Shown one piece after another: positions 32,375-57,125 of a stretch of DNA of 64,000 nucleotides. The translations under genes were made by a program, and so were the position numbers. How positions within the stretch are numbered: position 1 is the first letter of the stretch; the number at the start of each line of letters is the position of its first letter. The notes beneath the pieces are model-generated. The model ran no database searches. It was not told the origin of the DNA and was given only the letters and a program-made list of their open reading frames with translations. The stretch is from assembly GCA_029204225.1 (NCBI GenBank), contig MU832220.1, forward strand, positions 1 to 64,000. Direction: 5' to 3'. Source of the DNA: Diphasiastrum complanatum. Its lineage: Eukaryota; Streptophyta; Lycopodiopsida; Lycopodiales; Lycopodiaceae.

Positions 32375-33543
32375 TGTTGGCTGAATCTGACGAATCCCCA
32401 AGATACTCGGACAGAGCAACTCAAGAGCACCTCTCACCTTAGACCGAGTAGGTCTCTCAGAAGATGAGACGAACGAAGACTGAGAGCCGAGTATGAGAGC
32501 CGAGAAATACTAGTAGCAAGAACTGTGTAAGCCTCATGGTGAATCCTGAAAGATGGAATGACCATGTAGGAACTAGTATTTCTAGGCAAATGTAATAAAT
32601 GCAAGTAGGCCTCTCTTAAAGAAAGTAGAGTGAGCCACCTTTTGATGGTGACCTCTAGTGAAAAGCATTATTCCACTTGTAATTTGTGAAATGTGGAAAT
32701 TCCACTAGGATGCCACCTAAGGAGCTCTCTTGCTTATTTAAGAGACTCCCTCTTTGTGAAGAGGAGATTTTTGTGTATTGTATCAACTCCATGCTGAAAT
32801 GAGAAGAGCCTCCATGAGTTAGATGCATCCATTGAGCTCCTTGATCATGATGGTTTTCTTGAGTGATGCCCCTATGATCATGCCCTTCCATTCATGTTGT
32901 GTGTGGTTGTGGATCTAGAGTGGATTAGTTTTCTTGTTTTCCTAGTTGTGGATTAGTTTTCATTTCTTGTTGTGAATTAATGTAGGAATCAGCATTCAAG
33001 TAAGCTAAATAGGCTAGAAATGTGGCATTAATCTTGCATATCCTCTAAATTCTAGTTCTTGATGTTCTTGGGATGTCCAAGAACCAAAAGACTGGTTGGT
33101 TTCTTGATTCTTGGACTTCTAACATGTTGTAGATTAGTTATTGTTTCTTGTTTTGTCAATTTATGCAAGTACAGTAGTGTTTAGGATCTGATTTCAATTC
33201 ATTTTGCAGCAAAGTAGAAGTAGAAATCCATCGTTGTTCAACTGAGCATTAACGTAGATCATTTGTTGAACGCATTGGCTTGCATTTTGGTTGATTATGC
33301 ATGTGCATCAAGTTCAAGAGAGACCCATCCGGATGTCCTCTGACAGGTAGGAAAATACTACAATGATTATCAGCCCCTTCTGCCTAATCTGGGCCTTAAA
33401 ACAAAAAATATAATCTCAATAATTTCCCATAGTCTTTGCTGACAGGCAGAATACCAAGCTGTTAAAGTTGTAAAACAAGCAGCAAAAGAAGTAACGAAAC
33501 AAAGAACTAGTTAACAGATTCTAAGACAGAGAATCTTTCAACA
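32375..33543 (+). repeat. Element B 5' LTR
   Basis: 1169 bp, TGTTGGCTGA to TTTCAACA, with TGTTG/CAACA termini. It is nearly identical to the 3' LTR. It carries a 13-bp tandem copy (AGTATGAGAGCCG, about 32490) that the 3' LTR lacks, and scattered substitutions. Confidence 0.92.
32735..32742 (+). promoter_or_regulatory. TATA-like box in element B LTR
   Basis: TATTTAAG about 360 bp into the LTR, conserved in the 3' LTR. Plausible U3 promoter position; not proven. Confidence 0.4.
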
Positions 33544-33544
33544 T

Positions 33545-33889: not shown

Positions 33890-34440
33890 ATTCCCTTTAA
33901 ATCTCAACTGACGCTTTTTCAAGTCTCAACCGACGCTTTCCTTCATATCTCAACCAATGCTTTCCCTCAAATCTCAACCGACGCTTTCTTTCAAATCTCA
34001 ACCGACGCTTTCTTCAAATCTCAACCGACGCTTTCTTCAAATCTCAACCGACACTTTCCTTCAAATCTCGGCCGACGTTTCCTTCAAATCTCAACTGACG
34101 CTTTCCTTCAAATCTCAACCGACGCTTTCCTTCAAATCTCAACTGACGCTTTCTTCAAATCTCAATTGACAAATCTCAATTGACGTTTTTTTTCAGATCT
34201 CGACCAATGGGTTCGCGTCAGATCTCGACCGACGGGTTCGCATTAGATCTCGACCGACGGGTTGTCGGTCAGATCTCGACCGACGTGTTTCCGTCAGATC
34301 TCGACCGACAGGTTCCCGTCAGATCTCGATCGACGGGTTTTTGATTAGATCTCGACCGACGAAAGCGATCAAATCTCGACCGACGGTTTTGGGTCCAATC
34401 TCGACCGATGGGGTTCCTCACCATCTCAACCGACCACCTC
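33890..34440 (+). repeat. Tandem minisatellite of about 22 bp in the B leader
   Basis: Roughly two dozen units built on CAAATCTCAACCGACGCTTT, changing at about 34190 to CAGATCTCGACCGACGGGTT. Unit length varies by a few bases. A short open frame (33957-34169) is only a translation of the repeat. Confidence 0.85.
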
Positions 34441-34719: not shown

Positions 34720-36090
34720 ATGACACAACAATACCTAATGGCCGACAATACAAATCCTGAAATCCCAGAAGATTATCCATACGAGATCAGGTCCCCTGTA
34801 ACTAAACAAATCAGACGTCATAGGTTCTACCGAATGTGGGCCCAAATACACGAGCCATCCACAAACCCATTCGAGAGACAAGATCCTGATAGAGCTGAGT
34901 CTTCACGAGCATGAGTCTATTCTTATGGTGTTGACCCCTCCCAGGCCAGAACCAACCTTAATGGTGCTTCTGCTACCCACGGTGCTCATCTTGAAAGATG
35001 TATACCTAAGTTAGATCTACCAAAGTTTGACGGTAGTTCGGACCCTCAAAGATTTTTGCAAATCTTTGAGAATGCATGTGATGTGTATGGCAAAACATCT
35101 CCCGCTGCTATGGTCCAATTGTTTTCAATGACTATGATCACTAAAGCACGTGATTGGTTTTTCAACCTTGATCGTGAAGAAAAGACAGACTGGTCAATTT
35201 TAAAAGAGTCCTTTGTCAAGCGTTTTAAGTCCTTTCGCTTGATCGAGAGCCCTTTTTTCAATTTGAGTAACATCAAAATGACAAAAGGTGAATGCGTACA
35301 AGACTATATCGAGCGTTTCAAACGCCTCAAAAGTCAAGTACAAGAACAGCCCTTCGAACAGATGCTCATCATCTGGTTCTTAGTCGGCCTTCCAAGATGG
35401 ATTAGACGCGAGCTTAAATCCAATGATGAATATATGAGCCTAAAGCTAGCTATGTCTGATGTCATCAAAGAAGAAGATGAGGGATCAAATGTTGACAAAT
35501 CCAGAGAAAGAAGAGCACCACGTGCTCCTGTCCATGAGTCGAAGCCGATCAAGGACACCCAAGATCAGCTTTGGAAATCACAGCTGGAGTTGCTTAATAA
35601 GCAACACCAACTTCAACTAGAAAAACTCACCAATGAGTTTCAAACTACCATGAAGTCTATCCAAAGCAGTATGCTTGGTCAGCCAAACACTACACAGGTA
35701 CCTTATAAACAAAAACCGATATGGTGCCCACACTGCCGAGCTACACATCCTGCTGATGCTTGTCCTTCATATCGGCCTATCCAAGCACATACAGTTCAAC
35801 AATATGAAGAACAATCATCACATTCTGGAAATGCCTTGACTTATCATGAATATCCACCTGAAAGTCCAAAACCATTAGCCTTACAAGATGACTATGCTAT
35901 TATACAAGGGCCATTGCACACCAGATGTTTCATCTATGGTAAAACTGGCCATTTCATGGCTGATTGTCCAAGCAAGACCAAGTACCATGCTGAGTGTCCT
36001 GACTGTATCAAAAAACACAGTTTCAAAGACTATCTGAAACAACCAACTAAGATCCTACCCGCCCGTCACGTCAGTTATGAATCACGATAG
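34720..36090 (+). CDS. Element B Gag (one in-frame TGA)
   Basis: The frame begins MTQQYLMADNTNPEIPEDYP at 34720 and stays in frame to 36090, about 456 codons, broken only by TGA at 34912-34914. The Retrotrans_gag-type domain follows (LPKFDGSSDPQRFLQIFE, then WFFNLDREEKTDWSILKESF). A helical Q/K-rich segment and Cys-rich motifs come next: WCPHC, and a knuckle CFIYGKTGHFMADC whose second Cys is Tyr (TAT at 35935-35937). Gag would form particles. The stop and the lost knuckle Cys suggest decay, but the remaining 344-codon frame is intact. Upstream context AAAATG supports this start. Confidence 0.82.
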
Positions 36091-38395: not shown

Positions 38396-39552
38396 TGTTG
38401 GCTGATTCTGATGAATCCCCAAGATACTCGGATAGAGCAACTCAAGAGCACCTCTCACCTTAGACCGAGGAGGTCTCTGAGAAGACGAGACAAACGAAGA
38501 CTGAGAGCCGAGAAATACTAGTAGCAAGAACTGTGTAAGCCTCATGGTGAATCCTGAAAGATGGAATGACCATGTAGGAACTAGTATTTCTAGGCAAATA
38601 TAATAAATGCAAATAGACCCCTCTTAAAGAAAGTAGAGTGATCCACCTTTTGATGGTGACCTCTAGTGGAGAGCATTATTCCACTTGTAATTTGTGAAAT
38701 GTGAAAATTACACTAGGATGCCACCTAAGGAGCTCTCTTGCTTATTTAAGAGACTCCCTCTTTGTGACGAGGAGCTTTTTGTGTATTGTATCAACTCCAT
38801 GCTGAAATGAGAAGAGCCTCCATGAGTTAGATGCATCCATTGAGCTCCTTGATCATGATGGTTTTCTTGAGTGATGTCCCTATAATCATGCACTTTCATT
38901 CATGTTGTATGTGGTTGTGGATTCAGAGTGGATTAGTTTTCTTGTTTTCCTAGTTGTGGATTAGTTTTCATTTCTTGTTGTGAATTAATGTAGGAATCAG
39001 CATTCAAGTAAACTAAATAGGCTAGAAATGTGGCATAGATCTTGCATATCCTCTAACATTCTAGTTCTTGATGTTCTTGGGATGTCCAAGAATCAAAAGA
39101 CTGGTTGGTTTCTTGATTCTTGGACTTCTAACATGCTGTAGATTAGTTTTTGTTTCTTGTTTTGTCAATTTATGCAAGTATAGTAGTGCTTAGGATCTGA
39201 TTTCAGTTCATTTTGTAGCAAAGGAGAAGTAGAAATCCATCGTTGTTCAACTAAGCAGTAACATAGATCATTTGTTGAATGCATTGGCTTGCATTTTGGT
39301 TGATTATGCATGTGCATTTAGTTCAAGAGAGACCCATCCGGATGTCCTCTGACAGGAAGGACAATACTACAATGATTATCAACCCCTTCTGCCTAATCTA
39401 GGCCTTAAAACAAGAAAGATAATCTCAAGAAGTGCCCACAGTCTTTGCTGACAGGGAGAATACCAAGCTGTTAAAGCTGTAAAACAAGCAGCAAAAGAAG
39501 TAATGAAACAAAGAACTAGTTAACAGATTCTAAGACAGAGAATTTTTCAACA
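38396..39552 (+). repeat. Element B 3' LTR
   Basis: 1157 bp, TGTTGGCTGATTC to TTTTTCAACA, followed by duplication TAAGC. Confidence 0.92.
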
Positions 39553-39557
39553 TAAGC

Positions 39558-42245: not shown

Positions 42246-42434
42246 CATATTAGTGGTGTAGAGATTATAAGTGGGTACTCTGCCTTGCCTAGTGATGAAG
42301 TGGTCCTCCAGCTAGATAGGGGAGATAGCTCCTAAAAGCAATCGTTGGATTCGATTGATCATTGGTCACTTTCAAATTTTGAATATGGTTGATCAACTAA
42401 TCGATTAGGCTTGAGATTCATGCAGCCTAATTTG
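42246..42434 (-). repeat. Dispersed repeat shared with 55258-55412
   Basis: On the minus strand it reads ATTAGGCTGCATGAATCTC, AAGCCTAATCGATTAGTTGA, CGAATCCAACGA and CTAGGCAAGGCAGA, matching the plus-strand copy at 55258 with substitutions and indels. It begins exactly where copia E coding sequence stops. It could be an LTR end or a small element. Confidence 0.6.
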
Positions 42435-48562: not shown

Positions 48563-49285
48563 GGATCAAAAAACCAAGACATAGAGGCAAAGATGGATGC
48601 AATTGTTGATGACCAAAGTTCATACACATGAAAGGAAAAGCTTCTTGAAAAAACTAAGAAAAATTAAGCTCCTCTCCTCGGGTAGAGTGAGAATAGAGCT
48701 AATTTCAACTCGTGTAGAGAGAGAAGATTCAACAAGCAAATCTCACCAACAAGGTTTGACTCAAAAGCTCAACTTAGATTATGATTGAAAAGAGAAGTAC
48801 ATATAGAACTCATGGAGATCCCTCCTTGCATGCTATTGGACCCCTAATCATAGCCTCTTCAATTCTATTGGACCCCTAATCATAGCCTCTTTAGTTCTAT
48901 TGGACCCCTCTTGAAGATCTTTTAATTCCTATTGGACCCCTTGACAAGGCCAACACTTTGACTTCATCACTCATCAAATTACATTATCACAAGTGTCAAA
49001 ACCCTATTCACATGCCTATCTAGCTCAAGATTGCATCACAACTCACTTTTGGCTCAATAGAGACATTATTGTGGATTTTGCCAATTTGCCATCTATGCCA
49101 ATTTTTGGCCCTATCACAATTCTACACAAAGAAGCTTGACATAAACACTTATGATACCTCTAAAGTGAACATCATAAACTATTTTTGACTTTTTCTACAT
49201 GTGGGAACATGCTCCACACATGTGATCTTTTCCTCACAAACTAAAAGACACAAAACGACCAAGATAGATTTTGACAATTTTCACA
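48563..49285 (-). repeat. Element H 3' LTR, truncated
   Basis: It starts TGTGAAAATTGTC (49285) after the polypurine tract and is collinear with 53618-54384. It stops at 48563 about 130 bp before the expected end, where G4 sequence begins. Confidence 0.82.
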
Positions 49286-49300
49286 CTCCTCAAAAACTAG
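49286..49300 (-). other. Element H polypurine tract
   Basis: On the minus strand TTTTTGAGGAG precedes the LTR start. Confidence 0.65.
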
Positions 49301-49368
49301 CTTGGTAACATCAAGGAGTTTGTGAAACTTTTTGAGTAAATCCTTTTGTATGTAGATGAAGTAAAAAA

Positions 49369-50301
49369 CTAGCAAAAGGATCTATCATAGCAGCACCTCA
49401 CTAGATCCATAATAAGATCTCTTTGGTAGAAATCTCTTGCCAATATCTTTAAAGAGTGCTCCACCAATATGCCACTATGATCATGTGCTTCCTCCATGCT
49501 TGATGATGGTCTTTGATTTGAAAGCTCCACCATAAATAGAGAAATATGAGGCTTACAAGCCTCATAAGGATCATAGAGATCAAGATCATAAGATGTGAAA
49601 ACATGATGATCATCAAGATTATGCTTTCTAGCTTGACTAGTCCACATACAATGAACTATATCCATGATGGATCTAATCTTGATATCAAATGAAATCGTGA
49701 TCTTCTTGAGGCTAGATACTTGCTCGAGTATGTAAGTGTCCTCTTTGGAGGCTTCACTTAATCTCAAGAGACGTTTACAATATGCCTCAAAACATGTGAA
49801 GACATGATTTTTCAAATTTTGAGCAACAAGCTCAATCGTGCTCTTACTAAATCCAAGAGCATACTTTCGATAACACAATCTCTTGCTTTCAAAGAACTTT
49901 GGAAACATATCTAAGCCTTTCAAGACAAGAAATATTTCCATATAATAGGCACCATACAGAAATAGTACCTCTCTTGAACTTTGAGATGTAGAAATCTCAA
50001 TAAAGCAAGATAGTGCATCAAGAAATGGAAGAGAAGCATAAGTCAGAATGTTAAAGTGGATACCACATGATAATTGCCTCTCTTTACCATAAAAGATGAG
50101 CCATAAGGACTTGGCTATCCATCTTGAAAATCCCCTTGAAATCATATGTTGAGGAGGCTCCTCTTCAAACCTCGACCCCTTCACATCTTGATAATCTTCA
50201 ATAGATATGAATTGAGATGCATCTTGAGATGTCTTGAGCTTGGTCCCTTCCAAGGTTGAATGTAGATCTTCATAAAATATGACTTCTTTGCTCTCAATCA
50301 C
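49369..50301 (-). CDS. Intact 310-codon ORF of unknown origin in element H
   Basis: The first 18 residues (MIESKEVIFYEDLHSTLE) are the copia segment that links integrase to reverse transcriptase. From about residue 50 the sequence departs from any copia domain: SRGFSRWIAKSLWLIFYGKE, IEISTSQSSREVLFLYGAYY, LVAQNLKNHVFTCFEAYCKR, then SYDLDLYDPYEACKPHISLF, ending CCYDRSFC. Neither the RT blocks (GCKWIFK, LDV..AFL, YxDD) nor RNase H (SSxEAEY) are present. It is rich in aromatic residues, Cys and predicted helices, with no stop or frameshift for more than 900 bp, unlike the decayed Gag beside it. Capture of a host gene piece or of another element is the simplest idea. I cannot name a function. Confidence 0.6.
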   Translation of the reverse strand: MIESKEVIFYEDLHSTLEGTKLKTSQDASQFISIEDYQDVKGSRFEEEPPQHMISRGFSRWIAKSLWLIFYGKERQLSCGIHFNILTYASLPFLDALSCFIEISTSQSSREVLFLYGAYYMEIFLVLKGLDMFPKFFESKRLCYRKYALGFSKSTIELVAQNLKNHVFTCFEAYCKRLLRLSEASKEDTYILEQVSSLKKITISFDIKIRSIMDIVHCMWTSQARKHNLDDHHVFTSYDLDLYDPYEACKPHISLFMVELSNQRPSSSMEEAHDHSGILVEHSLKILARDFYQRDLIMDLVRCCYDRSFC

Positions 50302-51944
50302 TTTTTAAATAGAGAGTATAATAGCTTTATAGGCTTCCTTGGTGGATAAGCATCCAACCATGATCCATGAACTTGGGCATCCATCCTCCTTTGAAGGGAA
50401 AATGTGCAAAGCAAGAACCTCCATAGACACTAAGGTAATCATCCTTAGGCTTCTTGAATAATACTTCATATGGTGTATTTCCTCCGAGAGCTCCATCACT
50501 CCTCAAAGCTTTAATCTTCAATAAGAATTCCATTTCAACATATGCTTTGAATAATAGGAAATAATCATGCACCATAAATCTTGAAGAAAGAAGAAATGTG
50601 CATGTTGTGTGATCATCCTCCTTTGAAGACTTGGATGCATAAGAAACATCAAGAGATTTTGCACTCTCTCTTGTGTTCAATTTGTAGATGCCTTCATGTC
50701 TAGATCCACATGCAAGGATCTCACCATCCTTCTTGATCACACAATTGTTAGTATGGAAATTGACATCAAGGCCACCATCAAGTAATTTGCCAACACTTAT
50801 AAGATTCTTTGTAATCTTGAGAACAAAAAGAACCTCTTGAAAAGATAGAACTTTTGATGATGCAAGCTTCAAGGGAATGGTCCCTACTCCTTCAATTTTG
50901 CACTCTTGATCACTTGCAATATATATGGACTTCTTGACTCCTCCATAAGGCATAATAGTTGAAAAGGAATCCTTGGAGCTACACATATGTGAAGATGCTC
51001 CACTATCAATATACCAAGAGTCATCCATCTTGAAGGTGGAATAGGAGAATTTCGATGCCATACGTGAGCATTCTCCATCACTTGCAATAAAGTCTTTTTT
51101 CTTACGAGAGATGTTGGCTTGCTTGAATTGATTTTTCTTCTTGAAGCAATTGATGGCATAGTGGCTTTTCTTGCCACAAAAGAAGCAATTAACATCTTTT
51201 TTCTTCTTCTTTGAAGTAGAATATTGAGAGGAATCATCATCCTCTTCATCTTGGTCTTTTGCTTTGTCCCTAGAGAAGTGTTGGTGTTGCTTCTTGCTCC
51301 TCTCTTTGTGCTTGGCAAATAAAACTTTGTCTTCACCACTATGATTGAGTGACAGTTTGTCCATCCTTAATAGCTTGTTCTCATGCCTTGATTCTTCAGC
51401 CATTAGCACTCCATGCAAAGCCTCCAAAGTAGGTAGCTCCTCCTTGATGATATAGGATTGGACAAGGTTCTCATACTCATCTCTTAGGCCATTAAGTAGG
51501 ACTTGGACTAGCTCACTTTGATTTACGGATCCTCCAATACAAGCAAGCTCCCTATGAGTATCTTTCACTCTCAGCACATAATTAGTGGCACTCTCATCAC
51601 TCTTTTGAGAACTTTGGAAGATTTGATTTCTAAGAGTGAGGAGCCTAGAGGTATTTTTGGCTTCATAAATAGCTTTGAGAGTATCCCAAGCTTGCTTGGC
51701 CGAGTTGCAGTCACCAATCTCTCTCAAAATCTCATTAGAGACATTCATCTTGATATAATGGAGAGCCATCCTAGCTCTCTTCTTATACTTTGGTACTCCT
51801 TGAAGGACTTGAGGCTCCTGTCCATCCCAACAATATCCATCACATCTTGGAGTGTTAGAATAGACTCCATCCTCAACTTCAAAATAGAATAATTAAAGTG
51901 GATCGCCTTTCACTAGGTTCCAATAGATAAGAACCCATAGATGC
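50302..51944 (-). pseudogene. Element H Gag-protease polyprotein with integrase scraps
   Basis: The Gag start (MASMGSYLLE) is at 51944, with frameshifts near 51890 and 51770. From 51769 a 480-codon frame is open. It holds the Gag core (EAKNTSRLLTLRNQIFQ), a perfect CCHC knuckle (CFFCGKKSHYAINC near 51144-51187), protease (DSWYIDSGASSHM near 50990-51027), and a pre-integrase region without the HLGH motif. The integrase core is deleted at KALRSDG, which joins directly to NTPYEVLFKKPKDDYL. The frame ends at 50327; a frameshift leads to the next ORF. Gag and protease might still be made, but integrase could not. Confidence 0.82.
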
Positions 51945-53601
51945 CATGTAATAGTAAAGGCTCCTTGTGAATTGGACAATACTGTTGAAAATTGTCACTT
52001 CTCACTTGTCATTTTTTATTGTAAATAAAGATTATTCATGAGTACAATGTTCATGATCTGATTTCACACATGTGGAGCCTGTTCCCAGGTGTGAAAGAAA
52101 GTACTTTTTATACTTGTAAATATCTACTTTGATTTTGTATCAATCAAGTTAAGTGTGAACATGATATGACTAGTTTTTAGTCAAGTTGACTAGTCACCTA
52201 GAAATTAGCTTATCCTTGCATGTGCATGAGTAAATGCTCCCACATGGCAAGTGGATGTTCACACATGTGTATAGAGTTCTAGAAGATAAGAGTTGACAAG
52301 TTTCCTTAGATCCTATTTTGTAGGGAATATTCCTATATTTTAGGAGACTAGCTCTTTGGATTTTAGCCATATTCTAGAAGCTCAACTTTGGATAAGGATC
52401 AAGGATGGATCGAATGGATAGATTTGAGTGATGTGGCACTCTTCACACGTGTGAAGACCTGTTGGACTGTACCAGACTCGTGAATGTACTTTATGGATCA
52501 TCATTTTGCTAATGAGATTGATGAGACTTTTGCATTCTACACTTTTGTGAGATTTGTTAGTCAATAGAATTGTGATTTTATTGAATGATTGCTATCAAGA
52601 ACCAATGTACTTGTTGTTTCAGGTGCAGGCCGTACATTGGACAGTACTCCACACGTGTGAGGCCGCTCTCACTTGTTTATGAAGATTTGATCCATTGCTC
52701 TTGCTTAAATCTAAGTGTAGTGAATCTAGATCAAGATTTGAAGTGTGGAACTTGATAGATCCATTGATTAAGTAACCAATAACTCTCTATGATTGTTAAG
52801 TACAATCATTAATGTCCTTTAAATTGAAATTTTATCAAATAAAATGTTGCTTCTCACTCACTATAGGATCCTTGAAAGGTGTACCACCAACTCCTATGCA
52901 AGATCTTGCAACAAAGTGAGATATGGACCTCACTAGCTTTTCCAATCTCTCTTAATCTAGATCACTCTCACATCAATTGATGACGTATGGGCTAAGTTTG
53001 GATCAAGCTATCTTTGGCACGTGTGAAGCACTCCAAGAATCCACAAATCACTCAAATACAAGCCAATTGTATAAAAGAATGTGGCTATGACCTCAAATTG
53101 ATAACTAGATCTCAAGAAAGTGTGATTGGCAAGCCTAAAAGTGAGATTTTTGATCAAACAAGCATAAGAGAGTCATAAATAAAAGTGTCCAACTAGGTTG
53201 GGTGCCCTACCCACCTTGATTCAATTGACTATAACTTTTGATTGGGAGATCCCATGACTATGAAATCGATTCCTACACAAACTAGACTCAAATATCTTTC
53301 AAACTAGCTATGATTTGGCTCACACATAGAAGAGAACCATGAAACTGAATTGTGTTGTCCTTCACACATGTCTGAGTAGGAAAATCCATACAATATCATA
53401 AATGATTCAATCCTTGTGATTATGAACCATTTTAATCAAAAATTGCTTGAGATAGCATGGGAGATGCAAATTAGTCTCTCTAGATCTAGATTTTCAAGAA
53501 GTTTTTGAAACTTTGGATGAAACATCATACAAAGGGAGGAAATTCAAGGGAATGCCTTTGCTTTTGATGAGAAGCAGCAAATTTTCAAGGGCAAGAAGAA
53601 C
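51945..53601 (-). other. Element H leader, with insertion 51983-52838
   Basis: The leader matches F1 and F2 on both sides of an 856-bp segment that they lack. The insert begins TGTTGAAAATTGTCAC and ends near AATTTTATC, and contains several CACATGTG or CACACGTGTG palindromes. No clear target duplication or TG...CA ends; it may be a solo LTR of another copia family. Confidence 0.6.
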
Positions 53602-53617
53602 GTAGGCTCTGATACCA
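53602..53617 (-). other. Element H primer-binding site (tRNA-iMet)
   Basis: Minus-strand TGGTATCAGAGCC directly after the LTR end; exact initiator tRNA-Met complement over its first 12 bases. Confidence 0.88.
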
Positions 53618-54384
53618 TGTGAAATTTCAAACATGTGGAAATGTCCTAAAGTGTGTGATTGATCTCCTAAGCAAGCTTGTGTACTTGTTGATTGATTCTA
53701 GATTGATTTCCAAGATCTAGATCAAAAACCCAAGACATAGAGGCAAAGATGGATGCAATTGTTGATGACCAAAGTTCATACACATGAAAGAAAAAGCTTC
53801 TTGAAAAAACTAAGGAAAAGCTTCTTGAAAAATCTAAGGAAAATTAGGCTCCTCTCCTCGGGTAGAGAGAGAATAGAGCTATTTCCAACTCGTGTATAGA
53901 GAGAAGATTCAATAAGCAAATCTCACCAACAAGGTTTGACTCAAAAGCTCAAGTTAAATTATGATTGGAAAGAGAAGTACACATAGAACTCATGGAGATC
54001 CCTCCTTGCATGCTATTGGACCCCTAATCATAACCTCTTCAATTCTATTGGACCCCTAATCATAGCCTCTTTAGTCCTATTGGACTCCTCTTGAAGATCT
54101 CTTAATTCCTATTGGACCCCTGTACCAAGGCTAACACTTTGACTTCATCAATCATCAAATTACATTATCACAAGTGTCAAAACCCTATTCACATGCCTAT
54201 GTAGCTCGAGATTGCATCGCAACTCACTTTTGGCTCATTAATAGAGGCATTACATGTGAATTTTGCCAATTTGCCATCTATGCCAAATTTTGGCCCTATC
54301 ACAATTCTACACACAGAAGCTTGACATAAAAACTTATGAAACCCCTAAAGTGAACATCATAAACTATTTTTGACTTTTTCTACA
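53618..54384 (-). repeat. Element H 5' LTR, outer end missing
   Basis: It is collinear with 48563-49285 and with F1. It ends at TTTCTACA (54384), about 90 bp short of the expected LTR start. Confidence 0.82.
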
Positions 54385-55175
<791 letters not shown>

Positions 55176-55257: not shown

Positions 55258-55412
55258 AATTAGGCTGCATGAATCTCAAGCCTAATCGATTAGTTGATCA
55301 ACCATATTCAGAATTCGAAAGCGAGTGATGAATCGAATCCAACGACTGCTTTTTGCTCTTCATCACCAGGCAAGGCAGACTCACGTATAATCTCTGCACC
55401 ACTAATATCATA
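55258..55412 (+). repeat. Dispersed repeat shared with 42246-42434
   Basis: It starts ATTAGGCTGCATGAATCTC and includes CCAGGCAAGGCAGACTCACG. It is the opposite orientation of the copy at 42246. Confidence 0.6.

Positions 55413-55464: not shown

Positions 55465-55536
<72 letters not shown>
55465..55536. repeat. (CT)n microsatellite
   Basis: About 36 CT units, about 340 bp upstream of the Dof exon. It is complementary to the (GA)n tract 292 bp away. Confidence 0.92.
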
Positions 55537-55875: not shown

Positions 55876-56715
55876 GAGGTGATTCATATTTTGCACAAGC
55901 AGCTACCTCCAGATTATATGCAGTTTACACTCGAGTTTGGTGATAATCTCTCTCATTCGTTGAATTCTCAGTGACCATTTGAAGGTGAAGAAGTCAAGTG
56001 CCCCCATTGTGATTCTGTGAATACAAAGTTTCGCTTTTTAAACAATAATAAAGAGAATCAACAGAGATACAAGTGCACAAATTGCGGTCTCAAGTTCACA
56101 AAGGGTGGGAAGGTAAGAAAAAGAAGTAAGCAATTGGACCAAGAAGAAGAAACAGTCATGTCATTGACTCAAAATACTACACAAGGAATAGAATCTGATG
56201 GATTCTCTAGTCAAAGACCTTTGGAAGAGGGCGAAGAAATTAGTTGCTTGCATTGTGGCTCCATGAATACCAAATTCCGATATTTCAACAACAAAAAACG
56301 AAGCCAAGAGAGATATCTGTGCAAAACATGTCATAAAACCTTTACGCGTGGTGGGAGCAGGAGCACTAGGAAGGTATCAAGGCAACCAGCTCCATCCTCT
56401 ATTAATGAAGCATGTGGTGACTATAACATCAACTTCCACATCCCAGCACTAGTAGCGGTTGACAGTGACGACGATTTCACATATAAAGAAGATGCAAAGT
56501 TGGCTGAAGATTGGACGAGATGCTTCAATGATGAGATTCCAAATGCTGGTCAATCAAGTTTTTCAAGTCTTCTTGGGATTACCACAGGATGTGATCAAAC
56601 ACCTGCTACTGGAAGTTTGAATATGGAAGAGGATCAAAATCCAATGCATGTTGAAAGCCTTGAAGCGACTGAATTCCCAGTTGCAGATTTGGAAGGACTT
56701 TTTAAACAACGTTGA
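55876..56715 (+). pseudogene. Double-Dof zinc-finger protein gene (likely pseudogene)
   Basis: The frame contains two Dof fingers, each with the exact CX2CX21CX2C spacing. Finger 1 (55999-56085) has CPHCDSVNTKFRFLNNN and CTNC. Finger 2 (56245-56331) has CLHCGSMNTKFRYFNN and CKTC. Each is followed by (T/K)(K/R)GG as in Dof DNA-binding domains, and each is preceded by the same SQ(R/stop)P..EGEE lead-in, so one arose by duplication of the other. Dof proteins are plant transcription factors binding AAAG; one finger is the rule. An AG acceptor at 55874-55875 opens a frame EVIHILHKQLPPDYM. An in-frame TGA at 55972 falls where the second repeat has Arg (CGA). Downstream of the stop at 56713, another frame continues coherently (WQLTAEDLENLDFLLKDLFE) to TAG at 56804, suggesting a frameshift in the T/A run near 56700. 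A 5' exon was not found. Confidence 0.8.
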
Positions 56716-57125
56716 AGATTGGCAGCTCACAGCTGAAGATTTGGAGAACCTGGACTTTCTATTGAAAGATTTATTCGAGAATCAAGGTCCAAATTATACC
56801 ACATAGCAAACAGTGAGAACATAGCTCCTCTTTCAATATCAACATTATCGTTTATAAGAATGTTGCTTAGTTGCCAATGATGCAATTCATAAAAGCTTTT
56901 TATAGTGTTGATGATGTTTTGTAATCATGGATTGATTAAGTAAAATTGCAATACATATTTAAACAACTCAATCTTTCCATAAATGCCTTCATTGTGAGAG
57001 TATAGAAAATCTAGTTTTCATGTTACTTCTATGGTTCCATATAGAGAGTGGCATGGCTCTTCAACGTACACAACATTTAAGATGGATATGAAACTCATGG
57101 ACTCACAATTTAACAAAACACATTC

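Follow-up and report, generated by a model that had tools for sequence, protein, structure and literature searches.

Introduction

Dof proteins are named for 'DNA binding with one finger'. According to the available part of a review (PMC9897228), ordinary Dof domains bind AAAG, their affinity reportedly rises a hundredfold if there are two sites, and a Trp residue is important for DNA binding. A 2024 survey (PMC10842470) lists 16 genes that carry two or more Dof domains, found in mosses (Ceratodon, Physcomitrella) and angiosperms (Aquilegia, Actinidia, Rhododendron), and calls them unreported and possibly artefacts; lycophytes are not named in that list in the sections available. The Dofs of the lycophyte Diphasiastrum complanatum have been counted in PMC13161181, and a term search of the accessible text of that paper, PMC9370771 and PMC11281171 returned no mention of two-finger proteins. 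A described two-Dof family was likewise not found in the open-licence literature, which was judged mostly by title. A preliminary description of the locus reported here had noted no well-described two-Dof family in land plants, in agreement with what is available of the survey.

The window analysed here is a stretch of 64,000 nucleotides from D. complanatum, lying on an 81,658 bp contig (C702) of a 1.745 Gb assembly of 5176 contigs. Twelve sampled contigs numbered up to C23 range from 42 to 102 Mb, and C104 measures 0.14 Mb. Among solved structures, a chalcone-synthase-like frame of this assembly has 3awj as its first match and 6dx8 as its second, enzymes of Huperzia and Selaginella, in keeping with a lycophyte. 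The locus is probably a decayed copy from a family of transcription factor-like proteins that carry two short Dof zinc ribbons.

Results

The two-finger locus and its surroundings

The features of the locus are given in Table 1. Its two fingers begin at 55999 and 56245 and share one open frame; as previously described, each has the CX2CX21CX2C pattern, with complete zinc ligands, and each exceeds the Pfam PF02701 cut-off of 26.6 bits (57.2 and 58.9 bits singly, 101.1 bits combined). Judged from the stop frequency of the window, only 0.002 stop-free runs of at least 246 codons would be expected per 64 kb over six frames. The similar lead-ins noted earlier are also there, EGEEVKC before finger 1 and EGEEISC before finger 2. 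No other frame in the 64-kb window matched either finger when the fingers were used as queries, and tRNA and Rfam searches of the window at gathering cut-offs gave nothing.

Table 1. Features of the two-finger locus, numbered from the first nucleotide of the window.
Feature	Position	Strand	Remarks
Degenerate N-terminal lead with in-frame ATG	55918..55971	+	LSHSLN; LSLSLN in L008-type and C17-type relatives
In-frame TGA stop	55972..55974	+	between ATG and finger 1; common to near-identical copies L002 and L003
Two-finger open frame	55975..56715	+	246 codons plus stop; finger 1 not preceded by an ATG
Finger 1, short Dof domain	55990..56121	+	four-Cys core 55999-56085; matches the 59-position profile from 3 to 46
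Acidic linker	56122..56235	+	internal Met 56158-56160, potential start of a one-finger product
Finger 2, short Dof domain	56236..56358	+	four-Cys core 56245-56331; matches the 59-position profile from 3 to 43
C-terminal region in the finger frame	56359..56715	+	homologous to relatives until a frame break near the end
End of C-terminal homology, in a different frame only	56699..56806	+	reads FLNNVEDWQLTAEDLENLDFLLKDLFENQGPNYTT, then stop

The same locus had been taken for a single polypeptide spanning 55876-56806, and this has to be given up. The TGA interrupts the lead-in between the upstream ATG and finger 1, the finger frame terminates at 56713-56715, and the stretch from there to 56806 is open in another frame only. 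The 56699-56806 stretch is near-identical in L008, a relative on another contig (see below), where it extends for 12 more residues.

An LTR retrotransposon adjoins the locus at 48564-54384, with direct repeats (48564-49199 and 53720-54384) that are 91% identical and enclose minus-strand frames that look Copia-like by eye. A short repeat at 55258-55408, just 5' of the locus, has an inverted copy at 42247-42432 inside a decayed Copia-like region, the two being 91% identical over the first 99 bp. This segment (ATG reading MNRIQRLLFALHHQ…) was considered as an upstream first exon and rejected as repeat DNA, given its recurrence in the Copia-like region at 42.3 kb. Further upstream, direct repeats of about 1.17 kb and 94% identity (32375-33544 and 38396-39553) surround a frame at 34915-36087 that is gag-like by eye, which likely makes up a second LTR element; within it lie two adjoining tandem arrays (33894-34434) with units of 24-25 bp, encoding a repeated short peptide. 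Upstream of the gene, a run of pure GA (55068-55172, 52.5 copies) and one of pure TC (55465-55536, 36 copies) could pair into a long hairpin, and GA or CT runs also lie upstream in the three relatives inspected.

The fingers are short Dof domains

Of the 59 profile positions, the match of finger 1 reaches no further than 46 and that of finger 2 no further than 43, so both lack the C-terminal part of a canonical Dof domain. Ten canonical Dofs from this genome have 31 invariant columns in common, of which the window fingers retain 17 and 16. Phe replaces the conserved Trp in each finger, and the columns for Val, Pro and Gly that follow GG are lost. The window fingers belong to a divergent 'short' Dof subgroup and are not canonical Dofs: the zinc ligands are kept, the Trp and the C-terminal part of the domain are lost, and the shortened match had gone unnoticed in the earlier description.

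A sequence search of solved structures finds the CDF1 Dof domain (8xuf), and the same entry, CDF1 Dof on a palindrome, is the best PDB match of a fold model of finger 2 (Foldseek probability 1.00, E 0.0027), although this is a weak model (pLDDT 64.6) built with finger 1 as the sole other alignment row. A model of the whole 246-residue frame (pLDDT 53.5) was too poor for use.

A single-finger Dof on C23 (L047, at 18585208) has the Trp and no GGG tail, and falls beside the short Dofs on a long tree branch. It may be a transitional form.

Two-finger genes elsewhere in the genome

With the 246-residue frame as query, 88 matches were obtained in the organism's own genome, and the Dof profile gave 97, every one above the cut-off. 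Pairing by hand of neighbouring profile matches no more than 300 bp apart yielded 21 two-finger loci: 13 on C17, six on C5, and one each on C702 and C3025. Since the assembly may include haplotype copies, this number should not be equated with that of separate genes. Both fingers share one open frame at 20 loci, and at the remaining one a TAG lies between them. The window locus is 99.8% identical to the C3025 copy and 98.7% identical to the copy at 1.29 Mb on C5; two-finger frames of the diverged C17 and C5 lineages show 53-78% protein identity to it over both fingers.

When one C17 frame was used as query, six of the 13 C17 loci aligned over 317 residues free of stops, and in all six the 317 codons are open from an ATG. 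These frames hold more than one Dof domain in a single gene. Two further C17 loci align over the full 317 residues with one stop apiece, and five over only 187-192 residues. The intact C17 layout consists of M-DLSLSLN, finger 1, a linker, finger 2 and an acidic leucine-rich tail, the two four-Cys cores being 61 residues apart. Of the 18 single-frame loci examined, 9 have both an ATG and an LxLxL motif ahead of finger 1, and the other nine have neither. Zinc ligands are complete in both fingers of 17 of these 18 frames; the exception, L049, has the ATG and LxLxL and has lost a finger-1 Cys. The LxLxL motif is also present in the seven L008-type copies described below and is lost in the window. 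Two truncated C17 copies (17443711 and 17603976) have decayed tail pieces (17450393 and 17610653) about 6.7 kb downstream, as if the gene had been split by an insertion.

The extent of shared sequence fits a spread of copies by segmental or tandem duplication. On C17, L058 and L059 have 5.15 kb in common at 98.8% identity, and L057 matches them piecewise (0.1-1.8 kb, 93-100%). Within each C5 type, most compared pairs have 2.7-3.1 kb in common at about 99%, and L008 and L016 just 0.5 kb at 93%. No relatives were confirmed among the viral contigs and prokaryote genome contigs searched, as expected of a plant gene.

That the two-finger frame is an assembly artefact, or two pseudogenes lying side by side, is scarcely credible. 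C702 is an 81.7-kb contig, and the near-identity of its locus to those on C3025 and C5 means that it may be a haplotype duplicate. However, two-finger frames recur in the diverged C17 and C5 lineages, and the fingers group by position across both (see below). A homologue spanning both fingers, the lack of which the preliminary description had named as grounds for dismissal, is found among the 21 loci of the same genome, and its test consequently does not refute a two-finger family. Together the data indicate that two-finger Dof proteins are a real, old gene family in this genome.

Decay of the window copy and the C5 lineage

Stops and frame breaks make it most likely that the window copy is a decayed gene. 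The same TGA is found in the window, in L002 (C3025) and in L003 (C5 at 1.29 Mb). The five copies at 15-16.7 Mb on C5 include four with stops in the lead; in the fifth (L015) the frame becomes open immediately ahead of finger 1 and no earlier. A stop within finger 1 is found in the seven L008-type copies (six at 11 Mb on C5, one on C1807), all of which keep the lead. In L018 (C17) the stop falls immediately before finger 1; it and the window TGA at 55972 are equally far from the finger, though the two copies belong to separate lineages. None of L001-L016, the C5-lineage copies from C702, C3025, C5 and C1807, has a start followed by both fingers intact in one frame; L016 is absent from the survey of leads and stops, as the anchor did not find it. 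Among the copies examined, the intact-looking two-finger genes lie on C17.

The window gene could be alive if an upstream exon were spliced in before finger 1, leaving the TGA in an intron and a two-finger protein being made. The 246-codon frame is still open, and stops just 5' of finger 1 with open fingers, as seen in the window, in the copies at 15-16.7 Mb on C5 and in L018, would be expected in these three copy types if the lead were non-coding. We consider this improbable, as the best acceptor-like site found by eye, TTCTCAG just before 55972, keeps the TGA in frame, and the next AG is without a pyrimidine tract. Moreover, half of the 18 two-finger copies examined have an uninterrupted lead with an ATG, and the C-terminus of the window copy is also frame-broken.

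A one-finger protein might alternatively start at the Met at 56158, which sits between the fingers; an ATG occurs at the same distance, 29 codons ahead of finger 2, in L008-L014. The seven L008-type copies could do likewise, and they retain an open frame of 293 codons with finger 2 and the tail. This reading too is unlikely, given the frame break in the tail of the window copy and the roughly 99% identity of L008 to three sister copies compared with it, out of six, by which the open frames may merely reflect youth. Decay remains the preferred reading: the window copy has lost its two-finger frame with a start, and could make no more than a one-finger protein beginning at the internal Met.

Constraint on the fingers

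To estimate dN/dS, the Nei-Gojobori method was applied with bootstrap intervals, and the window frame was compared with one C17 frame over 226 codons; the comparisons include copies that are already broken, and the ratios may therefore be inflated. Window against C17 gave 0.53 (0.36-0.77) for the whole frame, with finger 1 at 0.32 (0.12-1.08) and finger 2 at 0.35 (0.14-0.78), and L008 against C17 gave 0.65 (0.46-0.90) for the whole and 0.36 (0.16-0.84) for finger 2. These values support, but do not prove, purifying selection on both fingers after their duplication. The claim is weakened by the finger 1 interval reaching 1.08 and by the copy at 15.24 Mb on C5, which against C17 gave 0.65 (0.47-0.93) for the whole and finger values of 0.69 and 0.56 with intervals exceeding 1. 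Between the window and this C5 copy the ratio was 0.74 (0.51-1.2), with 1.18 in the C-terminal region, and between the window and L008 it was 0.87. Near-identical C17 pairs gave 0.83 and 0.70 with wide intervals, and present-day selection is thus unproved.

Origin and age of the finger pair

The two window fingers are identical at 24 of 44 residues, with saturated synonymous sites (pS 0.75) and a lower dN of 0.37, which fits an old duplication under constraint. A finger tree was built from 33 rows and 47 columns, identical fingers being entered once; L002, L027-L030 and L048 were excluded because they repeat other loci, and L008 and L016 are represented without their broken finger 1. In this tree, for which the program warned that columns were few and that long branches meet, the finger 1 rows come together (support 94/90), as do the finger 2 rows (67/72), and short Dofs separate from canonical Dofs (98/94). 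Grouping of fingers by gene is rejected (p-AU 0.0023 for C17 and 0.0055 for C5), these groups having been chosen after the tree was viewed. Since the fingers group by position, their duplication most likely predates the split between the C17 lineage and the C5 lineage, which includes the window.

The preliminary description held that the domain was duplicated within the gene. This is plausible, as fingers 1 and 2 are sisters in the best tree (67/73), but trees that join either finger to single-finger short Dofs are not rejected (p-AU 0.24 and 0.29). The two-finger gene might instead have arisen by fusion of neighbouring single-finger short-Dof genes, which we regard as unlikely, though clearly less so than the alternatives on the status of the window copy. 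Such genes occur at 77.64-77.83 Mb on C4 as adjacent pairs about 890 bp apart, and the unrejected groupings would accommodate a fusion; the union of the two fingers in the best tree and the lead-in common to both argue against it. Within this C4 cluster (L031-L035) the paired genes lie on the same strand, with similar starts and ends. It is possible that the cluster is the source or the sister of the two-finger genes.

Discussion

A tentative scheme can be drawn for the family as a whole: Dofs that lacked the Trp and the tail may have become paired, founding a family, clustered on two chromosomes, whose members would read DNA in a bipartite manner and carry a repression motif at the N-terminus. 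Each ribbon would fold like the CDF1 Dof domain and bind DNA, and the tethered pair would read two half-sites at once, for which ordinary Dofs would use two molecules, so that the affinity gain from two sites would be obtained inside one molecule. The EAR motif, LxLxL, recruits a corepressor. The N-terminal LxLxL of the two-finger proteins would be an EAR-type repressor motif suited to such recruitment, whereas their acidic tail looks more like that of an activator. The missing Trp is the main objection to paired-site binding; with Phe in its place and only 16-17 of the 31 invariant columns kept, DNA binding may be altered or lost. If the scheme is true, a Dof-derived family breaks the one-finger rule, and one molecule may read two spaced half-sites.

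The conserved finger positions, the old duplication and the signs of constraint suggest that a two-finger layout can persist. The intact-looking C17 genes allow a test of whether tethering two Dof ribbons alters site recognition, and the family offers a view of what remains possible for a Dof ribbon that lacks the Trp and the tail.

Comparison with known Dof systems

Canonical Dofs (PF02701; CDF, PAPL and other groups) are homologous to the window fingers by Pfam, and by sequence and fold to CDF1 (8xuf). They have the same CX2CX21CX2C ribbon with the core TKF, NN, Q and T positions. They differ in having one finger and a Trp, where the two-finger family has two fingers and a Phe, and in this genome they carry an RNVPVGGG or RNVPVGAG tail after the finger that is missing from the two-finger family. 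The single-finger Dof at 18.585 Mb on C23 has lost the tail as the two-finger genes have, but keeps the Trp. The single-finger short Dofs of C4 have the same tail loss, Phe for Trp and a basic stretch following GG; each of their open frames holds one finger instead of two.

The multi-Dof genes of PMC10842470 likewise have more than one Dof domain per gene and are functionally uncharacterised in the text available. There all domains of one gene are said to cluster together, whereas in the lycophyte family the fingers cluster by position and clustering by gene is rejected. The presence of a two-finger family in another lineage argues against an artefact as the explanation of those moss and angiosperm genes.
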